Assembly (NCBI GenBank): GCA_902579395.1
Contig: CACHGK010000004.1
Location: 66,732-130,731, forward strand
Source: an uncultured Alphaproteobacteria bacterium
GTDB taxonomy: Bacteria; Pseudomonadota; Alphaproteobacteria; Methylaequorales; Methylaequoraceae
Length of the DNA: 64,000 nucleotides
Reading direction: 5' to 3'
Below the pieces are notes generated by a model, which was given only the letters and a program-made list of their open reading frames with translations, was not told the DNA's origin and searched no databases. The translations under genes were made by a program, and so were the position numbers. This document shows, piece by piece, positions 4,245 through 42,859 of the stretch (position 1 is its first letter; each line of letters starts with the position of its first letter).

Positions 4245-5328
4245 AAAAAAAATCGCTTATATTTCTAATTCAGTTATTCCAAGTTTCCAGGCAAACTCAT
4301 TTCATGTAATTAATATGGCATTTGAATTAAATAAATTTTTTGATGTTACATTATTTTCTTACAATGATAAGAAAAAGGACTTCACAAAGTTCTATGGGTT
4401 GGAAATCCTTTTTAAAATAAAATTTTTTAAATTATCTCCTGCTCCGATCTTTAATTTTTTTACAATGATTTTTTTCTCTTTTTTCAATTTTTATAAATTC
4501 GATTTTTATTTAGGAAGAAATGTTAAAATTTTATGTTTTCTATTTCTTCTAAAAAAAAAAGTAATATTAGAATTACATCAACCTATATTTCGACATTCTT
4601 TTTTAGAGAGATTATTGTTAGTTAAAGTCATAAAAAAAGGGATCAATCTTGTAGTTATATCAAATAGATTAAAAAAAATTATTCAAGGAGAGGTCAATTT
4701 AAGTAAATTAAATATTTTTGTTTTTCCAGATGCCTCTCGAAATCATTATAAAAAGAGATCGATCAAAAAAAATTGTATAGGGTATTTTGGAAGTTTATTA
4801 CCCGGCAGGGGCCTTGAAATAATATTTCTACTAGCAAAAAAGTTTCCAGAAATAGAATTTAATATTTTTGGTAAAAATAATCATTATTTTGATAATATTT
4901 TTCAAAAATCAAAAACGAAGAACGTCATACTTAACAAATTTGTATCTCACACAGAAATTGGTAGATTTATGAGTGAGCAACTAATTCTTCTAGCTCCATA
5001 TCAAAAAGACACCATTGTTCCAGGAGGTGCCATTACCTCTAATTGGATGTCACCATTAAAAATTTTTGAATATATGTCTTCAAAAAGACCAATTATTTCT
5101 TCAAACTTAAAAGTATTAAAAGAGGTTTTGATTCATAAGGAAAACTGTTTATTAGTGAATCCAGAAAATTTAGACGATTGGGTATTAGCAATAAAATTAC
5201 TTCAATCTAACAGTAAACTTAAGAATTATATTATAAAAAACGCTTATAATGATTTTAAGAAAAAATTTTCTTGGAATGTAAGAGTTAAGAATTACTCAAA
5301 AATTTTGAGAAAAATGGATATTCCTTAA
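4237..5328 (+). CDS. glycosyltransferase family 4-like
   Basis: GYFGSLLPGRGLEIIF, MSPLKIFEYMSSKRPIISSNLKVLKEVL (GT4 donor-site motifs). Confidence 0.75.
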   Translation: MRKKKIAYISNSVIPSFQANSFHVINMAFELNKFFDVTLFSYNDKKKDFTKFYGLEILFKIKFFKLSPAPIFNFFTMIFFSFFNFYKFDFYLGRNVKILCFLFLLKKKVILELHQPIFRHSFLERLLLVKVIKKGINLVVISNRLKKIIQGEVNLSKLNIFVFPDASRNHYKKRSIKKNCIGYFGSLLPGRGLEIIFLLAKKFPEIEFNIFGKNNHYFDNIFQKSKTKNVILNKFVSHTEIGRFMSEQLILLAPYQKDTIVPGGAITSNWMSPLKIFEYMSSKRPIISSNLKVLKEVLIHKENCLLVNPENLDDWVLAIKLLQSNSKLKNYIIKNAYNDFKKKFSWNVRVKNYSKILRKMDIP

Positions 5329-6684
5329 ATGTCTTTAAATTTTAAAAAAATAATTACTCTCGAAATCTTTATTTTTCTGTTCTTAACGATCATTTCGTTC
5401 TTGATAATTAAGTTCTCACCATCGTTATTAGCTTTCAACCTACCTGATTCTGAAGGTTATGTGAATTCAAGTGCTTATCGTTCTTCGATATATCCAGCTT
5501 TTATCGACATAACAAAATCAATAAAAATTGATATAGTAAATATGCAAATTCTAATTTTGTCATTAAGTTTAAGTTATCTTTGTATGACATTAATACAAAA
5601 AAATATAAAATACATTTTTATAATTGTTTTCTTTTTAGCTGTCAGCCTTAATATTTATTACACATCTTTCGCTAAAACTTTACTACCAGAATGTATATTT
5701 TTTTCATTAATAAATTTTGCTTTTTCATTATTTTTAAAAAAAAAAAAAAAAGTTAGACACTTTATTTACTTGGGTATTTCCTTAGGCTTAATTCTTTCAA
5801 TAAAAAAGATAGGAATTGTAATTGTTCTGACTTTTATAATTTTATTTTTTTTAAAACAATTAAAAAAAGAAAGATTTAAAAGAAATTTATCACTCGTAAT
5901 TTCTTCAATAATGATAATATTTTCTCTGGAAAATTTCCTTTTTTTTCAAAAACATAGTAATAGGAGTTCTGTCTTTGTTTATACTATCATCGGTAAATTA
6001 TTACTTATTTCAGGGAATGAAAATTTTGATTCAAATTACTATGATCCTAAATATAAAGAATTATTAAATCAGTCAGGAGAATATTTTAAAAACGTTAATA
6101 TTTTTTTAAATTCCATTGATGATGTTTTTCTTAAAGCTGAGCTATTGTCAGATTATGAAACAATTGCTCAATATCAATTTCATAAATTTGACGAAGTTAA
6201 GAGATTTAATATTACTGTTAATAATCATTTTAAAAAAGATCAGAATGAAATTTTATTAAATATGCTAAAATATAATTTTAAAGATCTATTAGAATTATCA
6301 TTTTATCATTATGTCGGAATGTGGTCTGCAGGATCAAAACAGATTTATTTGAATTCCAATAATGTTAACCCTCCTTACTATGATAGCCTTAAAAAATCAT
6401 CTGGGGGTATTAATGAAATTGACGATGATCTTATAAAAGTAGTAAATCAATTATTTAAAATCTTAATGTATTTTTCACTATTGGGTATATTTTTTTTATT
6501 TATGAGAAAATCATCAATTAAAAAAATGGTTTTATATTGTTTTATTATTTCACAATTCTATCTTATTTCTGTCTCGTTTGTAAATCTTGCTACTTTAAGG
6601 TACCTTATGCCTGTTTATGCTATTACAATCTTTCAGGTATTAATCATGGTCGACTATATTTATAAAAGAATTCGGAAAAATTAG
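5329..6684 (+). CDS. polytopic membrane protein of glycan cluster
   Basis: Multiple hydrophobic segments; located between GT4 and AsnB genes. Confidence 0.6.
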   Translation: MSLNFKKIITLEIFIFLFLTIISFLIIKFSPSLLAFNLPDSEGYVNSSAYRSSIYPAFIDITKSIKIDIVNMQILILSLSLSYLCMTLIQKNIKYIFIIVFFLAVSLNIYYTSFAKTLLPECIFFSLINFAFSLFLKKKKKVRHFIYLGISLGLILSIKKIGIVIVLTFIILFFLKQLKKERFKRNLSLVISSIMIIFSLENFLFFQKHSNRSSVFVYTIIGKLLLISGNENFDSNYYDPKYKELLNQSGEYFKNVNIFLNSIDDVFLKAELLSDYETIAQYQFHKFDEVKRFNITVNNHFKKDQNEILLNMLKYNFKDLLELSFYHYVGMWSAGSKQIYLNSNNVNPPYYDSLKKSSGGINEIDDDLIKVVNQLFKILMYFSLLGIFFLFMRKSSIKKMVLYCFIISQFYLISVSFVNLATLRYLMPVYAITIFQVLIMVDYIYKRIRKN

Positions 6685-26584: not shown

Positions 26585-26881
26585 ATGTCAACTTCAAACA
26601 ACATAATAAAATTTCCAAATTTATTAGAAAAAAAGAAAAAAGAACTTAGCGAAATAAGGGATGAAATTGAAATGATTTTAACAAATTATTCAATTAGTAA
26701 GAGAGACCTGTGGGCAGTTTCTTTGGCTGCTGGAAGATTTTCATCAATCAACTTGATGAAAATTGAGGGTCAAGATAAAGCAATAAAGTTTTTTAACAAC
26801 TGCATGGAAACACAAAAGAAATTTGAATTATCCAGAAATTCTTCCAACATTACCCGAGATCTGGGCACCAGTATCGACTGA
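26585..26881 (+). CDS. hypothetical protein
   Basis: 98-aa ORF, non-low-complexity; 3' end overlaps bactofilin CDS on opposite strand. Confidence 0.45.
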   Translation: MSTSNNIIKFPNLLEKKKKELSEIRDEIEMILTNYSISKRDLWAVSLAAGRFSSINLMKIEGQDKAIKFFNNCMETQKKFELSRNSSNITRDLGTSID

Positions 26882-27145
26882 TAAAGAATTTGTTTTTAAT
26901 TTTCCGTCAATTACTCCACTGTTTGAAACTTCCAATAAATCTGCTGTTATATCTCCATCAACTTTCCCTTCCACTTTTAGGTGTTCAGCATTAATGTTTC
27001 CATTAAATAGAGCTGAGGATTCAATAATCACTGACCTTGCAACAATATTACCTTTAAACTCTCCAGCTATTACAACTTGACCATCTTTAGATTCAAGAGA
27101 ACCTTCCATTAAAAGATCTTTATTTATATATGTTATATCGCTCAT
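26828..27145 (-). CDS. bactofilin (third of tandem set)
   Basis: Right-handed beta-helix repeats: EGSLESKDGQVVIAGEFKGNIVARSVIIESSALFNGNINAEHLKVEGKVDGDI. Confidence 0.82.
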   Translation of the reverse strand: MSDITYINKDLLMEGSLESKDGQVVIAGEFKGNIVARSVIIESSALFNGNINAEHLKVEGKVDGDITADLLEVSNSGVIDGKLKTNSLSVDTGAQISGNVGRISG

Positions 27146-27147
27146 TC

Positions 27148-27504
27148 TTAACCTTCAGATTCCTCATTTTTATTTCTTAATTTATTTTCGTCCCAATTAT
27201 GAATTATTTTACAATTAAGTGCAGCTCCTCTATCCATTTGGAGAGATTTATAATTAATTTCTCCTGTAATTACAGATGAATCTGTTAACCATACCGAGTC
27301 AGCTTTAATTTTTCCTTGATAATTTCCAGAAATAACTACTAATTCAGAGATTATTGAACCTTCTAGAGAAGCAGATCTGCCCAAAGTTACTTTCTCTGAT
27401 TTGATGTCAGCCTGAACTCTCCCATTAATTTCTATGGTTGAAGCATTGGAAATTTTACCTTTAAAAATAGCTCCTTTACCTATAATTGATTGATTATCTG
27501 CCAT
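27148..27504 (-). CDS. bactofilin (second of tandem set)
   Basis: IIGKGAIFKGKISNASTIEINGRVQADIKSEKVTLGRSASLEGSI. Confidence 0.87.
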   Translation of the reverse strand: MADNQSIIGKGAIFKGKISNASTIEINGRVQADIKSEKVTLGRSASLEGSIISELVVISGNYQGKIKADSVWLTDSSVITGEINYKSLQMDRGAALNCKIIHNWDENKLRNKNEESEG

Positions 27505-27507
27505 ATT

Positions 27508-27930
27508 TTAAGTCCCTTTAATTTTTTTGCGTTGTGTTTTTTTTACTTTATCTTTTTTAGGACTTTTGTCTTCAATTCTTTTCTCAAGCCCTCTAAAGAG
27601 GTGTATTTCTAGATTTGAACCGGGTCGTGCACTTAGACTATTATAATACATATTTCCTTTAATATTTGCATTTGATTCAAATGCTAATGATTCCGCAACA
27701 ACATCTCCCGTAAAATTACCGCCTATAATACATTCAATAGCTTTAATATTACCTGTTTGAGTGCCCTCCGATGAAATGTGAACATGTTCGCATTCTATAT
27801 TACCCTTAACAGTACCTTTTAAAACTAACTTACCACTACATTTAATGTTCCCATTGATTTGCATTTCTGTTCCAATTATACTTGATGAAGAGGAATTTTT
27901 TGTTGGTTTATCGGAATCTCTCGAGAACAT
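27508..27930 (-). CDS. bactofilin (first of tandem set)
   Basis: SSSIIGTEMQINGNIKCSGKLVLKGTVKGNIECEHVHISSEGTQTGNI. Confidence 0.87.
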   Translation of the reverse strand: MFSRDSDKPTKNSSSSSIIGTEMQINGNIKCSGKLVLKGTVKGNIECEHVHISSEGTQTGNIKAIECIIGGNFTGDVVAESLAFESNANIKGNMYYNSLSARPGSNLEIHLFRGLEKRIEDKSPKKDKVKKTQRKKIKGT

Positions 27931-33242: not shown

Positions 33243-33439
33243 AAACCTGTAGAATATGTCTATATATAAGATACTTCATTGGATTTATAATTCTGATTAT
33301 AGTAACTGCACTGCTATTCAAAGAAAAGATGCATTATTTATCTTTTGTAACGCCTTGGAATGCAGTTATAGTAATTTTTATTTTTGGTATAATTTTATTT
33401 TTGACAAAACTTTTAGAATACTTAAAAGATAAAAACTAG
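33239..33439 (+). CDS. small membrane protein
   Basis: ATG at 33239 overlaps upstream stop; two hydrophobic segments. Confidence 0.5.
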   Translation: MKTCRICLYIRYFIGFIILIIVTALLFKEKMHYLSFVTPWNAVIVIFIFGIILFLTKLLEYLKDKN

Positions 33440-33909
33440 CGATCCTTTACAAACCTAACAAAGAGTTCTTTTTCAGGAACAAATCTCCCATACGAGTGAC
33501 CAGTAAAAAAATTAACTGACCAATAAAATTTTGGTGACCACCAATTTCTCTGAGATGTCCAAAAAGGCTCTGCAGGTGTGTTAGGAAATAACTTTTTATC
33601 AATTTTTGCCCCATCACAATTTTTACAAACAATTGATTCTAATTCTTTTCTTGAAGGTAATCTCCATTTACCTTCTATTTGGCTGTTAAGTTGAAAATTT
33701 GCATCTTCAATTGATTTATAATCTAGTTTGACAGCATTTCCGACACAGGTATTTTTTTTATCACTCCATTGTTGACCTGCGGAACATTTTAGCCACTCAA
33801 TTTTATTTTTTAAATCAATTACATAATAACCTTTATCGATAAAGCTTGAGGCTAACAAATTCTTATTTATTAATAGAAAAAATAATAATAAAATTTGACA
33901 CACATTCAT
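33436..33909 (-). CDS. DUF1566 (Lcl C-terminal) domain secreted protein
   Basis: GKWRLPSRKELESIV, FPNTPAEPFWTSQRN, FWSVNFFTGHSYGRF; signal peptide. Confidence 0.72.
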   Translation of the reverse strand: MNVCQILLLFFLLINKNLLASSFIDKGYYVIDLKNKIEWLKCSAGQQWSDKKNTCVGNAVKLDYKSIEDANFQLNSQIEGKWRLPSRKELESIVCKNCDGAKIDKKLFPNTPAEPFWTSQRNWWSPKFYWSVNFFTGHSYGRFVPEKELFVRFVKDR

Positions 33910-34026: not shown

Positions 34027-34797
34027 ATGGATTTAGCTACAATAATAGGTTTTCTTGGAACAATTGGTATGATAGCGGGTGCTATGATATCGGCTGGAGG
34101 CTTGGGCTCTTACATAGATGTCCCGTCAATTTTAATTGTGTTTGGAGGTTCTTTTTTTGCCGTTATGTATACTGCTCCCCTACCTGTCTATCTTGGATCT
34201 TTTGGAGCATTCGGAAAAGCCTTTAAGCCACCTGTTAAGAAAATGGATGAATTAATTGAAAGAATAGTAGAGTTGGCTGGTATTGCAAGAAAAGACGGTA
34301 TGATGGCATTGGAGGGTCAAGAAACACCTGATCCATTCTTTGATAGCGGTTTGCAAATGCTTGTCGATGGTGCTGATGAATCTAAACTTACCATTCAATT
34401 AAAAAAAGAATTAAAAGCAATGCAAGTTAGACATGAGAAAAATATTGGTTGTGCTCAATCATGGGTGGATATAGCTCCGGCTATGGGAATGATTGGAACT
34501 TTGGTGGGTCTTGTAGCGATGCTTGGAAATATGGCAGATCCAAAGGCAATTGGACCAGCAATGGCTGTTGCTTTACTTACAACTTTATATGGTGCGATGA
34601 TAGCAAATACCATTTTTATGCCCATTGTGATTAAATTAAAGGGCTATTCTGCTTATGAAACAACTTACAGAGAAATGATTATTACTGGTTTACAATTTAT
34701 TTCCCGAGGTGAAAGCCCTAGAAATATTCAAGATCAGCTTGTTGCTAATCTACCTCCTAAAGAAAAACAAAAATTACTAGAAGCTCAAGCGGCTTAG
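34027..34797 (+). CDS. motA: flagellar motor stator protein, PomA-like MotA
   Basis: MDLATIIGFLG, DVPSILIVFGGSFFAV, DIAPAMGMIGTLVGLVAMLGNMADPKAIGPAMAVALLTTLYGAMIAN. Confidence 0.93.
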   Translation: MDLATIIGFLGTIGMIAGAMISAGGLGSYIDVPSILIVFGGSFFAVMYTAPLPVYLGSFGAFGKAFKPPVKKMDELIERIVELAGIARKDGMMALEGQETPDPFFDSGLQMLVDGADESKLTIQLKKELKAMQVRHEKNIGCAQSWVDIAPAMGMIGTLVGLVAMLGNMADPKAIGPAMAVALLTTLYGAMIANTIFMPIVIKLKGYSAYETTYREMIITGLQFISRGESPRNIQDQLVANLPPKEKQKLLEAQAA

Positions 34798-34808
34798 GGT
34801 TAGTTAAT

Positions 34809-35993
34809 ATGGCTGAGGAAAAAACAGTAAACGAAGAAACCTCAACTGAAGAAGAGGAGCATGAATGTCCTGAGTGTCCACCAAAGGGTGCTCCTGCGTG
34901 GATGGCTACCTTCGCTGATATGGCAACTCTGTTAATGGCTTTCTTTGTGTTAATTCTGTCTTTTGCAGAATTCAATGTTCCTAAATTTAAACAAATTAGC
35001 GGAAGTATGAAAAATGCGTTTGGTATTCAAAGAGTGATTCCTGTTGTTGAGCCTCCTAAAGGGACAACGATTTTATCTCTAAATTTTAGTCCAAACCCAA
35101 CTCCGGCTGTTCAGGAAAATTTAAAACAACAAACAACAGAAACAGATCAACCGAAAGTAGAACTCCAAACCAAAAAAGAAGATAACACCAAAGATGAAGG
35201 TGAAAATGAAGAAGCTACAGAATTGGCTAAAAATATACAAGATGCAATTGCACGTGGAGATATAAAAGTAGAGGCTTTGGGTGATAAAGTTGTAGTTAAT
35301 TTTACTCCAACTGAAGCGAATGAAGAAGAATTGCCTCAATTATTACAAAAGACACTTAATGCTGTAGAGTCGGTTAAAGCAGCTTCAGGAAAATCAGATT
35401 CTGAGATTTTAATTGGTGGACTTGAAAAACAATTAGCTGATTTAGCAACTGCATCATCTCAGGCTGGAAAGAATGAAGCTGAGGGAACTGAAGGTGAAAG
35501 TGTAGGTCAATCTGAACAAAGTCAATCAGCTAAAGAGGAAGCTAAAAAAGCAGAACTAGCTGAAGATAAATTGAAAGTTGCTTTGAAGGAAGAAATAGGT
35601 GAGGGATTAGTAAACGTAGATAGGGAAGAAGACAAAGTGGTGATTACTGTTGGTTCTGCTGGAGCTTTTAAATCAGGATCTGCGGAGTTGACCAAAAGAG
35701 CCAGAGAAATCATGGCTAAGATAGCAGAACAAAATAAAAAGGGTAGAAGTGAAATACTAGTAATGGGTCACACAGATAATGTTCCTCTAACATTTGGCTC
35801 AAATTTTAGAGATAACTGGGATCTAGCAGCAGCAAGGTCAGCATCTGTGGTTCAACAGCTTTCTAAAAATGATTCATTAGACCCAAAAAGAATGAAAGCA
35901 ATTAGTTATGGTGAAACAAGACCTATTGAATCAAATGACACAACCCAAGGTAGAGCTAAAAACAGAAGAATTGAAATTGAAATAAATTACTAA
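34809..35993 (+). CDS. motB: flagellar motor stator protein, PomB-like MotB
   Basis: CPECPPKGAPAWMATFADMATLLMAFFVLILSFAEF; OmpA-type C-terminus VMGHTDNVPLTFGSNFRDNWDLAAARSASVV. Confidence 0.93.
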   Translation: MAEEKTVNEETSTEEEEHECPECPPKGAPAWMATFADMATLLMAFFVLILSFAEFNVPKFKQISGSMKNAFGIQRVIPVVEPPKGTTILSLNFSPNPTPAVQENLKQQTTETDQPKVELQTKKEDNTKDEGENEEATELAKNIQDAIARGDIKVEALGDKVVVNFTPTEANEEELPQLLQKTLNAVESVKAASGKSDSEILIGGLEKQLADLATASSQAGKNEAEGTEGESVGQSEQSQSAKEEAKKAELAEDKLKVALKEEIGEGLVNVDREEDKVVITVGSAGAFKSGSAELTKRAREIMAKIAEQNKKGRSEILVMGHTDNVPLTFGSNFRDNWDLAAARSASVVQQLSKNDSLDPKRMKAISYGETRPIESNDTTQGRAKNRRIEIEINY

Positions 35994-35995
35994 AA

Positions 35996-36949
35996 ATGAA
36001 AATTGAAAACAGTCCATTCCACATAACAAAAAACTCAAGAAATGTTTCGCAAGAATTCAAAGTTAAAGGGGATACAAGTAAAATCTCAAAGAATTCTGAT
36101 TCTTTAGTCCCAAATAAAGAAGAAAAATCATTTTGGGACTGGTTTAGAGGTTTAGTTAATCCATTCCAAAATCTCCCAATTATAAGTGGCATATATTCAA
36201 GTATTAACTCTGAGGATGCTAATTCGGATAGAGACTTAGTTCAAAATAGTCTTGGTGGTTTTATGTATGGAGGACCGATTGGAGCAATTGCTGGTTTCGG
36301 AAATTGGATTTTTAATAAGCTCTTTGATAAGACTCCGTCAGAACTGGCATTAGAATTTACCGGAATAAGCAAGCTATGGAAAGATGAAAAAAGTTCAGAA
36401 AAAAATAAAGAAATAGTCAAAAATACCTCAGAACAAAAAAAAGAGTTAAATAATGCTTCTGGTAACGATGATGTCGCTTGGTGGAATAAAAACCAAAGAA
36501 ATCTTATTGAAAATCAAACTCAACTTGTATCTGCAAAAAGTCGTCAAATAAAAATAAATTCTTTAGAATCCGCGGAAAAAAAAATTCATAAAGATATACA
36601 ATTAGCAAATATTTCTTCTAGGTATTCTAATCAAAATATTATAACGAATAAAAAAGTTATTGGAATTAAACCAAAAAAATTAAGTTCAACGCCTGTTACG
36701 CAAATCAATAAAAGTGCTTTAATTGATAATTTAGAAAAAATGTCTAATTTTGAAAATAAGATCCTAAAAAAAGAAAAAACAACTGAAGGATACAGGGATT
36801 TAAATTTTAACTATCCAACCTGGAGTGCAAATGAGAATGAGATTGGACAAAATATAATTGATAAGTCTAAAAGTAATCATTTAAAAAACAAATATTTAAA
36901 TATCAAAAAAAATGAAACAACAGGTTCAAATTTAAATATGAAGCTTTAG
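35996..36949 (+). CDS. uncharacterised stator-operon protein
   Basis: Starts 3 nt after motB; GLVNPFQNLPIISGIYSSI...LGGFMYGGPIGAIAGFGNWIFNKLF glycine-rich hydrophobic core. Confidence 0.6.
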   Translation: MKIENSPFHITKNSRNVSQEFKVKGDTSKISKNSDSLVPNKEEKSFWDWFRGLVNPFQNLPIISGIYSSINSEDANSDRDLVQNSLGGFMYGGPIGAIAGFGNWIFNKLFDKTPSELALEFTGISKLWKDEKSSEKNKEIVKNTSEQKKELNNASGNDDVAWWNKNQRNLIENQTQLVSAKSRQIKINSLESAEKKIHKDIQLANISSRYSNQNIITNKKVIGIKPKKLSSTPVTQINKSALIDNLEKMSNFENKILKKEKTTEGYRDLNFNYPTWSANENEIGQNIIDKSKSNHLKNKYLNIKKNETTGSNLNMKL

Positions 36950-36955
36950 TGTAAT

Positions 36956-37555
36956 TTATTCAAAATCTAATTCTTCTGTTTTATATTTCTCGAAATACTC
37001 ATCTCCCAAAATTTCTTTAATTTTTGCCAATGTAAGTTCATTGATTATTAATGAATATTCCTCATGCATTTCTGAGCATTTACGAGACACAGCGTTTGCA
37101 ACACCTTGTGTAATAAATTCATTTTCGAGTGCTGTTCTAGCTCTTGTTGTGGCCTCAGATTTTGCTTTTGTAAGTCTTGACAAACCAGAGTTTTTTTTTA
37201 TGTTCAGATCGTCTACCACTTCCATAAGTTGTTTGTAGCTTGGATCAGGAAGATCAATATTGATGAATTGTCCATCAATCTCATAGTTAAACTCGACTTC
37301 ATCTATCTTCTCAGTAAGTAATGGTATATGGTCGGTGTTGAAAACAAGAATTTGTATTACATTTTCATTTTCTGTTCTTTTGATATCCCCCACATCAACA
37401 AGCCTTCTCGGTTTTCCTTGAACACTAATCCTTAAACCTTTGAGAGTAGCCAAATTTGCATCAGCTGATTTAACTTCTGTAATAGTCTCTTTATATTCTT
37501 CTATAGCAGCTTTCATAAGTGTTTCTGCTTGTATTGTATATTTATCTGCAACCAT
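36956..37555 (-). CDS. ribosome-recycling-factor-like protein at end of flagellar export operon
   Basis: LRISVQGKPRRLVDVGDIKRTENENVIQILVFNTDHIPLLTEKIDEVEFNYEIDGQFINIDLPDPSYKQLMEVVDDL matches the RRF core pattern; RTGR-type motif absent. Confidence 0.5.
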   Translation of the reverse strand: MVADKYTIQAETLMKAAIEEYKETITEVKSADANLATLKGLRISVQGKPRRLVDVGDIKRTENENVIQILVFNTDHIPLLTEKIDEVEFNYEIDGQFINIDLPDPSYKQLMEVVDDLNIKKNSGLSRLTKAKSEATTRARTALENEFITQGVANAVSRKCSEMHEEYSLIINELTLAKIKEILGDEYFEKYKTEELDFE

Positions 37556-37564
37556 TTTTGAATA

Positions 37565-38359
37565 CTATACTATCACTGTATCTTTTTCATCAACAATGTT
37601 TTCTTTATTTGGTTCTTTTTTATCTAAATTCTTATCTTCATCAACCTCTTCAATTAAAGGTTTTGGCAGTTTTGTATATCTAAATTTGGACTTTGGATCA
37701 AATTTTCTAATTATTTTTTGAGCTTCATCCATTGAGCCTGCTACTAATTTGAAACAAAAAACTTTTCCCTCAAGCATAGAAAAACTATATAGTAAATTCA
37801 GTTGAGCCTTATAGCAATACAATGAGGTAAGCAAATATCCTATTAAAAAAATAAAGATGTTTACTGCAAAAGAAATTGCCATTATTGCGATAAACAAAAA
37901 TAAAACCCACCATTTTTGACTATATGCAAGCCATAAAGGTGGAAAAAGTCCAGCCGAGAGAGAACTTGAATTTTCTATAATTTCGTAATTTCTATAAACA
38001 TCTCGCATTCCCACATATTCATTTAATTGATCTAGATCTCTAGTTTCTCTCGAGGAATAATGAGATTTAATTTTTGAGGTTTCTTCACTAGTAAGGGAAA
38101 TAAATTTACAGCCCAAACTATTCTCTACTATTAAGTCAAAAAAAGTTTCATCTCTAAGAATTGTTAAAAGCGCTTTTTGTTTATTTTTTTTTATTTCTTT
38201 GAGATCATTTGTTAGCTGTTTCTCACCAAAAGTATAGAGTTGATTATCTAAAGCTACTATTACATCATGTTGTTTTAAGAAATTTGAAGCTGCGTGGCAT
38301 CCTCCAGTTATTTTATCAATCTTGATAAGAAAATTACCTTCTTTTTTATTTTCAGCCAT
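37565..38359 (-). CDS. PDZ-like plus DUF2628-like membrane protein
   Basis: ITGGCHAASNFLKQHDVIVALDNQLYTF; LFPPLWLAYSQKWWVLFLFIAIMAI. Confidence 0.55.
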   Translation of the reverse strand: MAENKKEGNFLIKIDKITGGCHAASNFLKQHDVIVALDNQLYTFGEKQLTNDLKEIKKNKQKALLTILRDETFFDLIVENSLGCKFISLTSEETSKIKSHYSSRETRDLDQLNEYVGMRDVYRNYEIIENSSSLSAGLFPPLWLAYSQKWWVLFLFIAIMAISFAVNIFIFLIGYLLTSLYCYKAQLNLLYSFSMLEGKVFCFKLVAGSMDEAQKIIRKFDPKSKFRYTKLPKPLIEEVDEDKNLDKKEPNKENIVDEKDTVIV

Positions 38360-38363
38360 TGTT

Positions 38364-39089
38364 CTATGGGAAGGTAATGTTTTCTTTTTGATCTTTAATT
38401 TCTTTTACAAGTAATTTATTTTGACTTGAAATTGCTTCAAGTGCTGCATTTAGAGAGGAAGTACTATTGGAAAGTTCTTTTAATAATTTCATACTCTGAT
38501 TCTTCTTATTATCTTGCATCAATTTACTTAATTCTTTGTTTACACTTGCGGATGTCATAACTCCAGATTCTTGAATTGATTTACCCAATTTATCAGTTTC
38601 ATTCTTAATAGATTTGGAAAGTCCACTTGATAAATTGGTGATTTCTTTAGAGAGGTTTATCATTAGTTTTTTATCATTTGAATTTATCGCATCCGAAAGT
38701 TCTTCGATTTTAAATTTCATTTCTTCACTTGCATTTAAAAGATCAGTGTGTCTAGCAAGACTTGAGTTCATATTATCTACGGCCTTGTTTACATTCTCAA
38801 CATTTTCTGCAAATACTACCAAAGCTTCTCTACTTGTGCTAGTCATATCCTCTAACTCAGATAATGATTTGAAATATAGAAGTCCAGTAAGAATAATGGC
38901 TATAACTGCAGTTGCGATTGAACTTGAAAAAATGATTGTGGTGTATTTATGGATTTCTTTCATTTTTTGCTCCGTTTTTAGGTACTCGTTTTTAATTCTT
39001 TTATATTCTGATGTTACATCAGTTGCAGCATCAGCTGCATCAAGGGCGATTTTTATGCTCTCCTGCATTGCATTTAGTTGTTGTGTCAT
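38364..39089 (-). CDS. coiled-coil membrane protein
   Basis: TM segment TTIIFSSSIATAVIAIILTGLLYF followed by long heptad-like region. Confidence 0.55.
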   Translation of the reverse strand: MTQQLNAMQESIKIALDAADAATDVTSEYKRIKNEYLKTEQKMKEIHKYTTIIFSSSIATAVIAIILTGLLYFKSLSELEDMTSTSREALVVFAENVENVNKAVDNMNSSLARHTDLLNASEEMKFKIEELSDAINSNDKKLMINLSKEITNLSSGLSKSIKNETDKLGKSIQESGVMTSASVNKELSKLMQDNKKNQSMKLLKELSNSTSSLNAALEAISSQNKLLVKEIKDQKENITFP

Positions 39090-39286
39090 GCAATTCTTCC
39101 TTTTAATTTAATCTTAACATTTTTTTCTTTACTTGAGAAGAGTGCACAATTTGTGCCAGAAACTTTTTTTATTTCAGAATAAGGATAATTTTTTGAAATC
39201 ATGCCAAATGCTCTGCATCCATATGGAAAATCTCTTTTATAAGTTACATAAAAGTGAAGACATTTATTACAATTATTTTTTTCCAT
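39086..39286 (-). CDS. small Cys-rich protein
   Basis: CNKCLHFYVTYKRDFPYGCRAFGMISKNYPYSEIKKVSGTNCALF; four conserved-looking Cys. Confidence 0.6.
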   Translation of the reverse strand: MEKNNCNKCLHFYVTYKRDFPYGCRAFGMISKNYPYSEIKKVSGTNCALFSSKEKNVKIKLKGRIA

Positions 39287-39515
39287 TTTTGATTAAATCC
39301 CTAATTTTATAAACAATTTTTGCTATTTGGAATCTTAATGCACCACAAAAAGATGTTAAAGCACAGAACCACAGAAAAAAAGCTAGAAATATTTCTTTAT
39401 TTTCAAAAAACTCCATTGCTTTGAAATGACACACCAAGGCGCTATAAAAAAAAGCTAATGTTATAATTATCTTTGAAATATTTTGATTAATCATTTTTTC
39501 TTCCATACTCGTCAA
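39273..39515 (-). CDS. small two-TM membrane protein
   Basis: Hydrophobic ORF overlapping flhB 3' end and the downstream gene. Confidence 0.5.
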   Translation of the reverse strand: MTSMEEKMINQNISKIIITLAFFYSALVCHFKAMEFFENKEIFLAFFLWFCALTSFCGALRFQIAKIVYKIRDLIKNGKK

Positions 39516-40635
39516 AATTCATATCTTCTGGAATTTCAATTTCAGGTTTTTCAATCTCTTCACCGTTATCGACTTTATAAATGTATGCCAGGGCTATTGC
39601 AACTGCATTATAAAGTTTACTCATTATTTCATCACCAATCTCTGAGGTAAAATATAGTGCTCTTGCTAGTTTTGGACTTTGCATAGTTCCAATCTGCAAT
39701 TCTTTACCTTTTTTTATAATTTCTTCAGCATTTTTACCCTTACCTTTTGAAATAATTACAGGTGCACTAGAGTCTCCAACTTCATATTTTAGTGCTACAG
39801 CAAAATGTGTTGGGTTGGTTATAATTGCTGTTGCCTCTTGAAGATTATCAATTGAAGCAGTTTCTTTTCTTCCTTTCATTGCAGCTTGAGCCTGAAGTTT
39901 TCTTATTTTTTGTTTAACCTCCGGTTGCCCATCTGTTTCTTTGTACTCATCTTTAAGATCTTGATGAGACATTCTTAATTGTTTTATATAATCATACTTC
40001 TGGTATACAATATCAATAAAAGCTATTAATGCTAAAGCCAATAAGAGAGAAATTACTAAATCTGGAAAAAATGAAGATAACCTATTTACTGCTGAAAAAA
40101 GATTTGCAGTCGTTAAATTAGTTAAATCAGCAAGATAGTAATTTATTACAAAGTAAGAGATTATTCCTAGAAGTGAAACCTTTAAAATAGCCTTAAAGAG
40201 TTCAACTAAACCTTTGATTGAAAAAATTCTTTTTAGACCTTTAATTGGATTTATTTTTTCTATCTTCCAGTATATTGATTTTATAGAGAAGTTAATACCA
40301 CCTACTATAAATTGTGTAATAATACTAACAATAAGAAGTGGAATTGAGAAAATTAAAAAAACTTGAAGAAAAAATTTTATAACTTTTGCCATTGATTCCA
40401 ATGGTGATTTTCCGGAAACAAGTTCAGGTCCAAAAGAAAATAATGATTTACAGATTTTCAAAAAATCGTCTAAAAGCATTGGTGAAAAATAAAGTAGTAA
40501 AACCCCCATGAACATTGAAGTAAAAACAAACGCCTCCTTTGATGATAATACTTTACCATCCTCTTTTGCCTTTTCTAATCGTCTGGATGTTGGTTCCTGG
40601 GATTTTTCCTGACTATCGTCTTTTTCTTCTGCCAT
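39487..40635 (-). CDS. flhB: flagellar export protein FlhB
   Basis: EEKDDSQEKSQEPTSRRLEKAKEDGKV, NPTH autocleavage site (IITNPTHFAVALKYE). Confidence 0.95.
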   Translation of the reverse strand: MAEEKDDSQEKSQEPTSRRLEKAKEDGKVLSSKEAFVFTSMFMGVLLLYFSPMLLDDFLKICKSLFSFGPELVSGKSPLESMAKVIKFFLQVFLIFSIPLLIVSIITQFIVGGINFSIKSIYWKIEKINPIKGLKRIFSIKGLVELFKAILKVSLLGIISYFVINYYLADLTNLTTANLFSAVNRLSSFFPDLVISLLLALALIAFIDIVYQKYDYIKQLRMSHQDLKDEYKETDGQPEVKQKIRKLQAQAAMKGRKETASIDNLQEATAIITNPTHFAVALKYEVGDSSAPVIISKGKGKNAEEIIKKGKELQIGTMQSPKLARALYFTSEIGDEIMSKLYNAVAIALAYIYKVDNGEEIEKPEIEIPEDMNFDEYGRKND

Positions 40636-40644
40636 CTATTTTTC

Positions 40645-41460
40645 CTAATTAACTAGAACACTTTCAATTGATTCTAAAGAGCTTTTTGTTAATTCTGCAA
40701 ATGCATTGCCGATTGATTGAGATGAAATATACATTATGAAAAAAGCTAAAATCATCGTTACTGGAAAAGCAAAAGAGAACATATTAAGTTGGGGGGCGGC
40801 CCGAGTAATAATTCCAACTGCTATATTTGTCATCAAAAGTGCACCAACAACTGGAAGCATTATAAGACCACCTGTATAAAACATTGCTCCAGCTGCTTCG
40901 ATGCCAATACCAACCAATTCAATTGATGGTATGCCGTTGTTGATATTGAATATTTCAAAACTTTTAAATAAAAATTCAATAGCAATCAAATGCCCATTTA
41001 AAGACAAAAAAATTGTTATCAGAAAAAGATCTAGAATCAAACTCATAACAGGAGTTTGTCCTCCAGTATCTGGGTCCACCATTTGCGAAAAACCTAATCC
41101 TGTTGTTGATGCAATTTTTTCTCCCGCCAAACTTGCAGCAGCGAACCAAATTGTTAGAGTTAATCCTAATGACAATCCAATCAAAAGTTCAACAACCACA
41201 ACTGTAAAAAGATTTTCAAGAATTTTTTCAGAAATTTCTAAATCAGAGAGATAACCGAAGTAAAAAAATGAAATGATAAGTGAGAAAACAATTTTTACAT
41301 TTAATGGAATGACTCTAGAGCCAAGAAAAGGACTAGATATGAAAAACGCTGAAAGTCTGATAGAACATAAAAAAAACTTAAATAAATATTCCAGCAAAGA
41401 GTTAAGCTCAAGCCCTGGTAATGGATCCATTGGACTAAAAAATGGGAGAGGAATAAACAT
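40645..41460 (-). CDS. fliR: flagellar export protein FliR
   Basis: RLSAFFISSPFLGSRVIPLNVKIVFSL, GEKIASTTGLGFSQMVDPDTG. Confidence 0.92.
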   Translation of the reverse strand: MFIPLPFFSPMDPLPGLELNSLLEYLFKFFLCSIRLSAFFISSPFLGSRVIPLNVKIVFSLIISFFYFGYLSDLEISEKILENLFTVVVVELLIGLSLGLTLTIWFAAASLAGEKIASTTGLGFSQMVDPDTGGQTPVMSLILDLFLITIFLSLNGHLIAIEFLFKSFEIFNINNGIPSIELVGIGIEAAGAMFYTGGLIMLPVVGALLMTNIAVGIITRAAPQLNMFSFAFPVTMILAFFIMYISSQSIGNAFAELTKSSLESIESVLVN

Positions 41461-41726
41461 TAATTTATACCTGAAATTGTATCAAATATAAAATCAAAGT
41501 AATCTGTTAGGCTAACTAGAAAAAAATTGGCTAAGAAACCCATTGCAAAAATTACTAAAACTATTTTTGGAACAAAACTCAATGTCATCTCTTGTATTGA
41601 CGTCGCAGCCTGAATAATTCCAATAATTAGACCTATTGCTAAGGCAGCACCGAGGAATGGACCACTTGAAATTAAAACTTGATAGAAGGCTAATCTTACC
41701 ATTTCAACATTTTCATCAAATCCCAT
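41460..41726 (-). CDS. fliQ: flagellar export protein FliQ
   Basis: LGAALAIGLIIGIIQAATSIQEMTLSFVPKI. Confidence 0.93.
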   Translation of the reverse strand: MGFDENVEMVRLAFYQVLISSGPFLGAALAIGLIIGIIQAATSIQEMTLSFVPKIVLVIFAMGFLANFFLVSLTDYFDFIFDTISGIN

Positions 41727-41747
41727 ATCTAACTCCGTATATTAATT

Positions 41748-42494
41748 TTATGAAAAAGTTCCCACAAGAGACCCAACTGTCATTGACCATCCATCAACTA
41801 GTACAAAAAGTAAAAGTTTGAAGGGTAGGGCAATCAACATAGGAGACAACATCATCATACCTAAAGACATCAAAACTGAGGCGACCACCATATCAATAAC
41901 AAGAAAAGGTAAGAATAAAAGAAATCCAATTTGAAACGCAGTCTTTAGTTCACTCGTTATGTATGCTGGTAAAACAATATAGAATGGAACCTCTGAACTA
42001 TTTTCAAAATTTCCTTCATTTGCCATTTGAGCAAACATTAAAAGATCATTTTTTCTTGTATTTTTTATCATGAATTTTTTTAACTCACCTCCACCAGTCT
42101 CTACTGCTTCACTTAAATTCATTTCACCTTTATTGTATGGTTCTGAAACATCTGAATAAATTTTATTGAAAGTTGGGGCCATAACAAAAAATGTTAAAAA
42201 TAAAGAAATTGCTACTAATATTTGATTTGGAGGTGTTTGTTGTGTGCCAAGAGCTTGTCTTAGAATAGACATAACAATTATTATTCGTGTGAAAGCTGTC
42301 ATACCTAAAACCAAAGAAGGTAAAATAGTTAGCGCTGTCATTAGGGCTAAAATTTTTAATGAAATAGAATAAGTCTTTGTTCCATTAGCTGCTTCAGTAA
42401 TTGTAAGAGCGTCTAAACCCTCAGGAGAAACTTGAGTAATCCCAAATACAGGGAAAAAAAGAATAAAAAATAATATTATACTATTTTTTTTCAT
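41748..42494 (-). CDS. fliP: flagellar export protein FliP
   Basis: MTAFTRIIIVMSILRQALGTQQTPPNQILVAISLFLTFF. Confidence 0.95.
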   Translation of the reverse strand: MKKNSIILFFILFFPVFGITQVSPEGLDALTITEAANGTKTYSISLKILALMTALTILPSLVLGMTAFTRIIIVMSILRQALGTQQTPPNQILVAISLFLTFFVMAPTFNKIYSDVSEPYNKGEMNLSEAVETGGGELKKFMIKNTRKNDLLMFAQMANEGNFENSSEVPFYIVLPAYITSELKTAFQIGFLLFLPFLVIDMVVASVLMSLGMMMLSPMLIALPFKLLLFVLVDGWSMTVGSLVGTFS

Positions 42495-42807
42495 TCATAA
42501 GCCTTTTCTCAAACACTTTCTCAAGATGGTTTGTTCTTACTTTATTGTTTTTAATTTCTGTCAGTAAAGACCCTGAGTTTTTTCCTGATATAAAAAGATA
42601 ATCTTTGTCATCTAGATTTAAAATTAAGGCTCGGTCTCCTTGACCAAGAATTGTAACTTCCGAAACCTTCATTCTTTTTTTAGAATTAATTGTTCTGGTA
42701 ATGAGGTGTCTGTTTTTTTTTATATAATAAAAAGCTACGAATAGAACAGCTAGGAAGCCTAAGACAAGTAAATAGTTAGCTAAGCTTGGTCCTGAGTATT
42801 CTGGCAT
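42481..42807 (-). CDS. fliO: flagellar protein FliO
   Basis: Small single-TM protein directly before fliP; SEVTILGQGDRALILNLDDKDYLF. Confidence 0.78.
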   Translation of the reverse strand: MPEYSGPSLANYLLVLGFLAVLFVAFYYIKKNRHLITRTINSKKRMKVSEVTILGQGDRALILNLDDKDYLFISGKNSGSLLTEIKNNKVRTNHLEKVFEKRLMNEKK

Positions 42808-42843: not shown

Positions 42844-42859
42844 AGCAAGATTCTTGCCA
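42844..42859 (-). promoter_or_regulatory. sigma54 promoter (TGGCAAGAATCTTGCT) upstream of fliO
   Basis: Canonical elements and spacing; predicted TSS 26 nt before fliO ATG. Confidence 0.82.

Follow-up and report, generated by a model that had tools for sequence, protein, structure and literature searches.

A conserved gene set behind flhB in pelagic Alphaproteobacteria: a candidate flagellar accessory set, extended by an unusual RRF-fold protein

The gene block behind flhB

The window (the whole stretch of DNA analysed here, 64,000 nucleotides) comes from a 1.3 Mb draft genome belonging to the HIMB59/AEGEAN-169 alphaproteobacteria, two names for one group (PMC10308909). Family-mates include 'alpha proteobacterium MED-G10 HIMB59' as well as other uncultured Alphaproteobacteria. 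The five genes described behind flhB in the initial annotation are present on the minus strand from 39506 to 36956, in the order and with the spacing claimed, all junctions being overlaps or gaps of <12 nt (Table 1). Reading the frames directly, flhB overlaps TM80 by 20 nt, TM80 overlaps C66 by 14 nt and C66 overlaps CC by 4 nt, with gaps of 4 nt between CC and PDZ and 9 nt between PDZ and RRFL. No curated family in Pfam or NCBIfam was matched by TM80, C66 or CC. The earlier domain calls for the other two genes hold, with RRF supported by Pfam and fold, DUF2628 by Pfam, and the PDZ domain by profile and fold.

Table 1. Coordinates in the window of the block, its upstream genes, promoter element and converging motAB.
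Feature	Position	Strand	Basis
flhB (export gate/switch protein, block anchor)	39487..40635	-	TIGR00328 5.1e-103, PF01312 2e-100
TM80 (two-TM small protein)	39273..39506 (ATG; TTG at 39515)	-	two hydrophobic segments; orthologues in 78 of best 80 of 168 loci
C66 (four-Cys CxxC...C...C soluble protein)	39086..39286	-	invariant C10, C13, C28, C51; wide Pseudomonadota family
CC (single-TM coiled-coil protein)	38364..39089	-	alignments, topology prediction, C-terminus
PDZ (N-terminal PDZ domain and DUF2628-type membrane segment)	37565..38359	-	Pfam, profile, fold
RRFL (RRF-fold protein without canonical RRF signature)	36956..37555	-	Pfam, fold, residue comparison
fliO-fliP-fliQ-fliR (same run, upstream of flhB)	40645..42807	-	ORFs and domain matches; FliO match weak, below cut-off
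motA-motB (converging on block)	34027..35993	+	ORFs, tblastn, locus comparison
sigma54 -24/-12-like element TGGCAAGAATCTTGC (upstream of fliO)	42845..42859	-	pattern match; conserved in relatives

The sigma54 promoter proposed upstream of fliO is borne out as a site that is both present and conserved in relatives. Scanning the window with the pattern TGGCACN5TTGC, allowing up to two mismatches, gave 39 matches compared to 19.9 expected. Of 66 scored loci, 55 have the strict pattern ahead of fliO, and an alignment of HIMB59 sequences retains the GGC...TTGC core in all 17 rows, with a variable first base (several rows have C instead of T). Placement of flhB and the accessory genes in one operon suggests co-expression, not physical association.

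Three further features of the window were noted. X317 (35996-36949), a HIMB59 gene behind motB, has a conserved N-terminal half and a fast-changing remainder; it belongs to no curated family, and the SAR116 and PS1 loci examined showed no sign of it. An Lcl_C-domain gene with a hydrophobic N-terminus lies between motA and rpoN (33436-33909), and is kept in HIMB59, PS1, and SAR116 loci having motAB nearby. Three adjoining short ORFs on the minus strand (26828-27930) look bactofilin-like by eye.

Conservation of the block and lineage of its carriers

Nineteen window proteins were compared by tblastn with stretches from 20 relatives. The order flhB-TM80-C66-CC-PDZ-RRFL was found in all 18 HIMB59 loci complete across the block, while one incomplete locus (L076) begins within CC. 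The flhB/TM80 overlap ranges from 20 to 32 nt, the TM80/C66 overlap from 4 to 14 nt, and the C66/CC overlap is 4 nt in every complete locus; the CC/PDZ gap measures 4-10 nt (15 nt in L076) and the PDZ/RRFL gap 3-54 nt. Identity to locus L061 at codon positions 1/2/3 is 87/97/55% for CC and 87/94/48% for RRFL, an excess at the first and second positions that, read from these alignments, is the mark of strong purifying selection at the protein level. The conservation of CC equals or exceeds that of the gate proteins. Since order and overlaps recur among the HIMB59 loci, and codon positions 1 and 2 are far more conserved than position 3, the block is not a chance arrangement. In a single locus (L080, genome G027, 5193-5643) RRFL is split into two pieces corresponding to residues 1-84 and 132-199, reflecting either gene breakage or a misassembly.

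Within HIMB59, co-occurrence of the block with flhB looked perfect but was dropped as evidence: eight genomes are devoid of both flhB and CC, and all eight carry flhA. Because flhA is still present, the flhB gap is best explained by incomplete assembly.

Searching a class sample of 386 genomes with a PDZ profile revealed six further carriers outside HIMB59, surrounded by flhB-TM80-C66-CC-PDZ wherever the contig reaches. A wider PDZ profile added no full-length carriers to these: its weaker matches either cover the DUF2628 part or are limited to stretches of long ORFs the size of a PDZ domain. When the CC alignment was used to scan the named genome collection, a scan in which rarer unlinked copies could be missed, the four-gene core TM80-C66-CC-PDZ came in order after flhB in 78 of the best 80 of 168 loci; the remaining two are cut by contig ends, starting within CC or immediately ahead of it. 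Named carriers include HIMB59, SAR116/Puniceispirillum (Puniceispirillaceae), the PS1 clade IMCC14465 and UBA4588; other lineages have the core too, and its order is kept at 25-37% CC identity across lineages. Alphaproteobacterial loci that are not of the core type have different genes downstream of flhB. This linkage survey did not find CC and PDZ orthologues regularly away from flagellar genes, in keeping with the flagellar association first put forward for them.

The block was also taken at first to be a unit of five genes, and this has to be narrowed to a core of four. RRFL ends the flhB run in HIMB59, and many loci with the core lack the RRF-like gene. Among the best 80 of 168 loci, eight from SAR116 and two from UBA4588 have it between PDZ and motB, on the motAB strand.

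A tree of 70 FlhB rows places the 27 core-bearing FlhBs in one clade (support 100/100), separate from the group formed by 15 of the 16 other alphaproteobacterial FlhBs. The exception, G042, adjoins the core-bearing clade on a long branch and its placement is unsure. Seven non-alpha rows fall near the core-bearing clade, although a 'gamma-like' label for the lineage would be an interpretation. The core thus appears, from FlhB phylogeny, to mark a distinct flagellum type or lineage in pelagic Alphaproteobacteria, set apart from the usual alphaproteobacterial type. Several carriers also have divergent FlhF-like genes (adjoining flhA in G011); these match model positions 1-261 at scores below the family cut-off.

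The core proteins and RRFL

TM80 is predicted to form an N-in/C-in hairpin with a basic C-terminal tail. The four invariant cysteines of C66 (first-sequence numbering) form a putative metal-binding knuckle. Assignment of C66 to a named metal-binding family was dropped, with no Pfam, NCBIfam or convincing PDB match. C66 relatives were detected in 85 of 299 Pseudomonadota genomes, and in 29 loci of such relatives (flanks mostly 1.5 kb each side) flagellar profiles matched just one MotB-like frame. Hence C66 belongs to a wide four-Cys family with members mostly away from flagellar genes, and the flagellar linkage initially proposed for it does not extend to that family.

CC has one TM segment in each of the 80 orthologues from the best 80 of 168 loci. 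As the N side of this segment is the more basic in all 80, CC is predicted to adopt an N-in/C-out topology. The cytoplasmic N-terminus is highly conserved in the alignments. The extreme C-terminus reads [IV]-x-[FY]-P in 79 of these 80 orthologues although the coil itself diverges, and the sole orthologue lacking the motif has unknown residues there. Matches of CC to coiled coils in the PDB are generic.

The membrane segment of the PDZ protein matches DUF2628 (PF10947) at 23.3 bits, just above the gathering score of 23.0. Among 45 orthologues DUF2628 was matched in 19 and the PDZ domain in 17. Profile matches to the PDZ part are confined to PDZ-sized stretches of long ORFs. In the model (mean pLDDT 84.1) the N-terminal part resembles PDZ structures, with a weak E-value of 1.7e-4 at best; as modelled, this domain is a PDZ fold. 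The protein is thus akin to known PDZ domains and to DUF2628, and differs from both in being a PDZ+DUF2628 fusion behind flhB for which no full-length match was found outside the known carrier families among the 386 class genomes. The CC C-terminus was considered as a ligand of the PDZ protein on account of its conservation. This pairing is disfavoured and was set aside, because the CC C-terminus is predicted to be periplasmic and the PDZ domain lacks a signal for export.

RRFL matches Pfam RRF (PF01765) at 5.9e-11, above the gathering score, but scores 29.2 bits against the frr equivalog, for which the cut-off is 149.1. The RRFL model has the two-domain fold of ribosome recycling factor (mean pLDDT 89.3), and its best Foldseek matches are RRFs (1.6e-11). 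It differs from the recycling factor in its residues: measured against the 56 near-invariant residues of 29 canonical RRFs, the window RRFL keeps 11, and the GLRTGRA and IRNxRR signatures are lost. R129, R132 and R133 are changed in all 18 RRFL sequences, R132 being replaced by K in each. Any activity of RRFL would therefore rely on the fold of a recycling factor without its signature. A role as substitute for canonical RRF was rejected, as the canonical gene is present separately alongside RRFL. From these comparisons we infer that RRFL derives from RRF, was added to the set and retained in HIMB59 and some SAR116/UBA4588 members, and has lost the recycling-factor role.

HIMB59 genomes often contain a third, RRF-like paralogue in addition to canonical RRF. 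This gene (L081, 9075-9677) has a conserved neighbourhood. Its neighbours, judged from their sequences, are presumably non-flagellar genes.

A proposed role at the early basal body and export gate

The suggestion of an undescribed accessory set acting on the export apparatus stands as regards the gene set itself, which overlaps flhB and lies under a conserved sigma54-type promoter; its action on the export apparatus is read from position only. The literature searched contained no description of these genes and none of an RRF-like protein in flagella. We propose, with moderate confidence, that TM80, C66, CC and PDZ are the conserved accessory set of one sigma54-dependent flagellum lineage, most likely a complex in the inner membrane that assembles or scaffolds the early basal body and the export gate, with RRFL as an RRF-derived addition. 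The four proteins and the FliOPQR-FlhB export gate would be expressed from a single promoter, with overlapping genes. TM80 and PDZ would sit in the inner membrane with parts facing the cytoplasm, C66 serving as a small soluble metal-binding partner of the membrane set. CC would pass through the membrane, with its conserved head in the cytoplasm and the coiled coil in the periplasm, where its conserved C-terminal tetrapeptide may dock on a partner. We infer the protein complex, its basal-body location and every biochemical role of the core.

A precedent for such a set is provided by CP1-CP4 of the Rhodobacterales fla1 cluster, conserved unknowns that are essential for motility in Phaeobacter inhibens (PMC12363192). 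CP1-CP4 show that motility can require lineage-specific unknowns encoded within a flagellar cluster, and the core resembles them in this setting. They are reported as exclusive to Rhodobacterales fla1 clusters (PMC12363192), whereas the core described here follows flhB and occurs in other lineages; the two sets are distinguished here by description.

A bolder version of the proposal, which we regard as speculative, has the RRF-derived fold exapted into flagellum biogenesis beside an undescribed four-protein inner-membrane complex. RRFL could then be a structural or assembly factor, or a ribosome-docking factor linking the fliOPQR-flhB mRNA, as it is translated, to the forming basal body.

Rather unlikely, in our assessment, is a motor scaffold in which membrane-anchored CC builds a ring or spoke in the periplasm, arranged around the MS-ring and positioning or stabilising the stators as the E-ring proteins MotE/FlgY/FlbB do; TM80 and PDZ would be its base in the inner membrane. 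FlbB, an early flagellar part of the E-ring (COG3334), likewise combines an N-terminal TM with a parallel coiled coil (PMC13023049), and CC is predicted to be a membrane-anchored periplasmic coiled coil of this kind. Furthermore, 44 loci show motAB converging on the block, and FlgY homologues are absent from beta/gamma-proteobacteria (PMC13023049), the core FlhB lineage grouping with a subset of non-alpha FlhBs. However, the C-terminal MgtE_N/ARM-like head that defines the E-ring proteins gave no Pfam match in 8 CC members, and CC was not adopted as an E-ring protein for this reason. In 27 of 71 scorable loci motAB lie outside the ~8 kb downstream span, and there flhB always adjoins the core where the contig reaches (best 80 of 168). 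Because the core trails flhB even with motAB elsewhere, its position favours an early basal-body or gate role over a stator role.

It is improbable that the membrane set acts in polar placement or licensing, recruiting FlhF or marking the pole in the manner of FipA, a small membrane protein affecting polar flagellum formation in gamma-proteobacteria (PMC11620751). The FlhF-like genes of several carriers, including the one next to flhA, and the conserved cytoplasmic N-terminus of CC are in line with such a role, but the core is linked to flhB rather than flhF. A Pfam search gave no DUF2802 or other FipA-like match, and the core proteins have no sequence match to FipA, such that the likeness is a functional analogy and a lead only. 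Least probable are unrelated passengers that remain behind flhB simply because the operon is inherited, within a single cluster that spread laterally: all carriers fall in one FlhB clade, so that linkage may partly reflect descent, and RRFL is variable, but the order persists despite the low CC identity between lineages and the strong purifying selection is hard to explain in this way.

We class the set as flagellar accessory genes specific to a lineage, joined by an unusual RRF-fold protein. The early basal-body and gate proposal gives abundant, little-studied ocean bacteria (HIMB59/AEGEAN-169, SAR116, PS1) an accessory set of the flagellum that can be put to the test, and supplies four proteins of no known function with a narrow functional context. 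RRFL would place a recycling-factor fold in use at a flagellar locus, and the core may serve as a genetic marker for one flagellum lineage.
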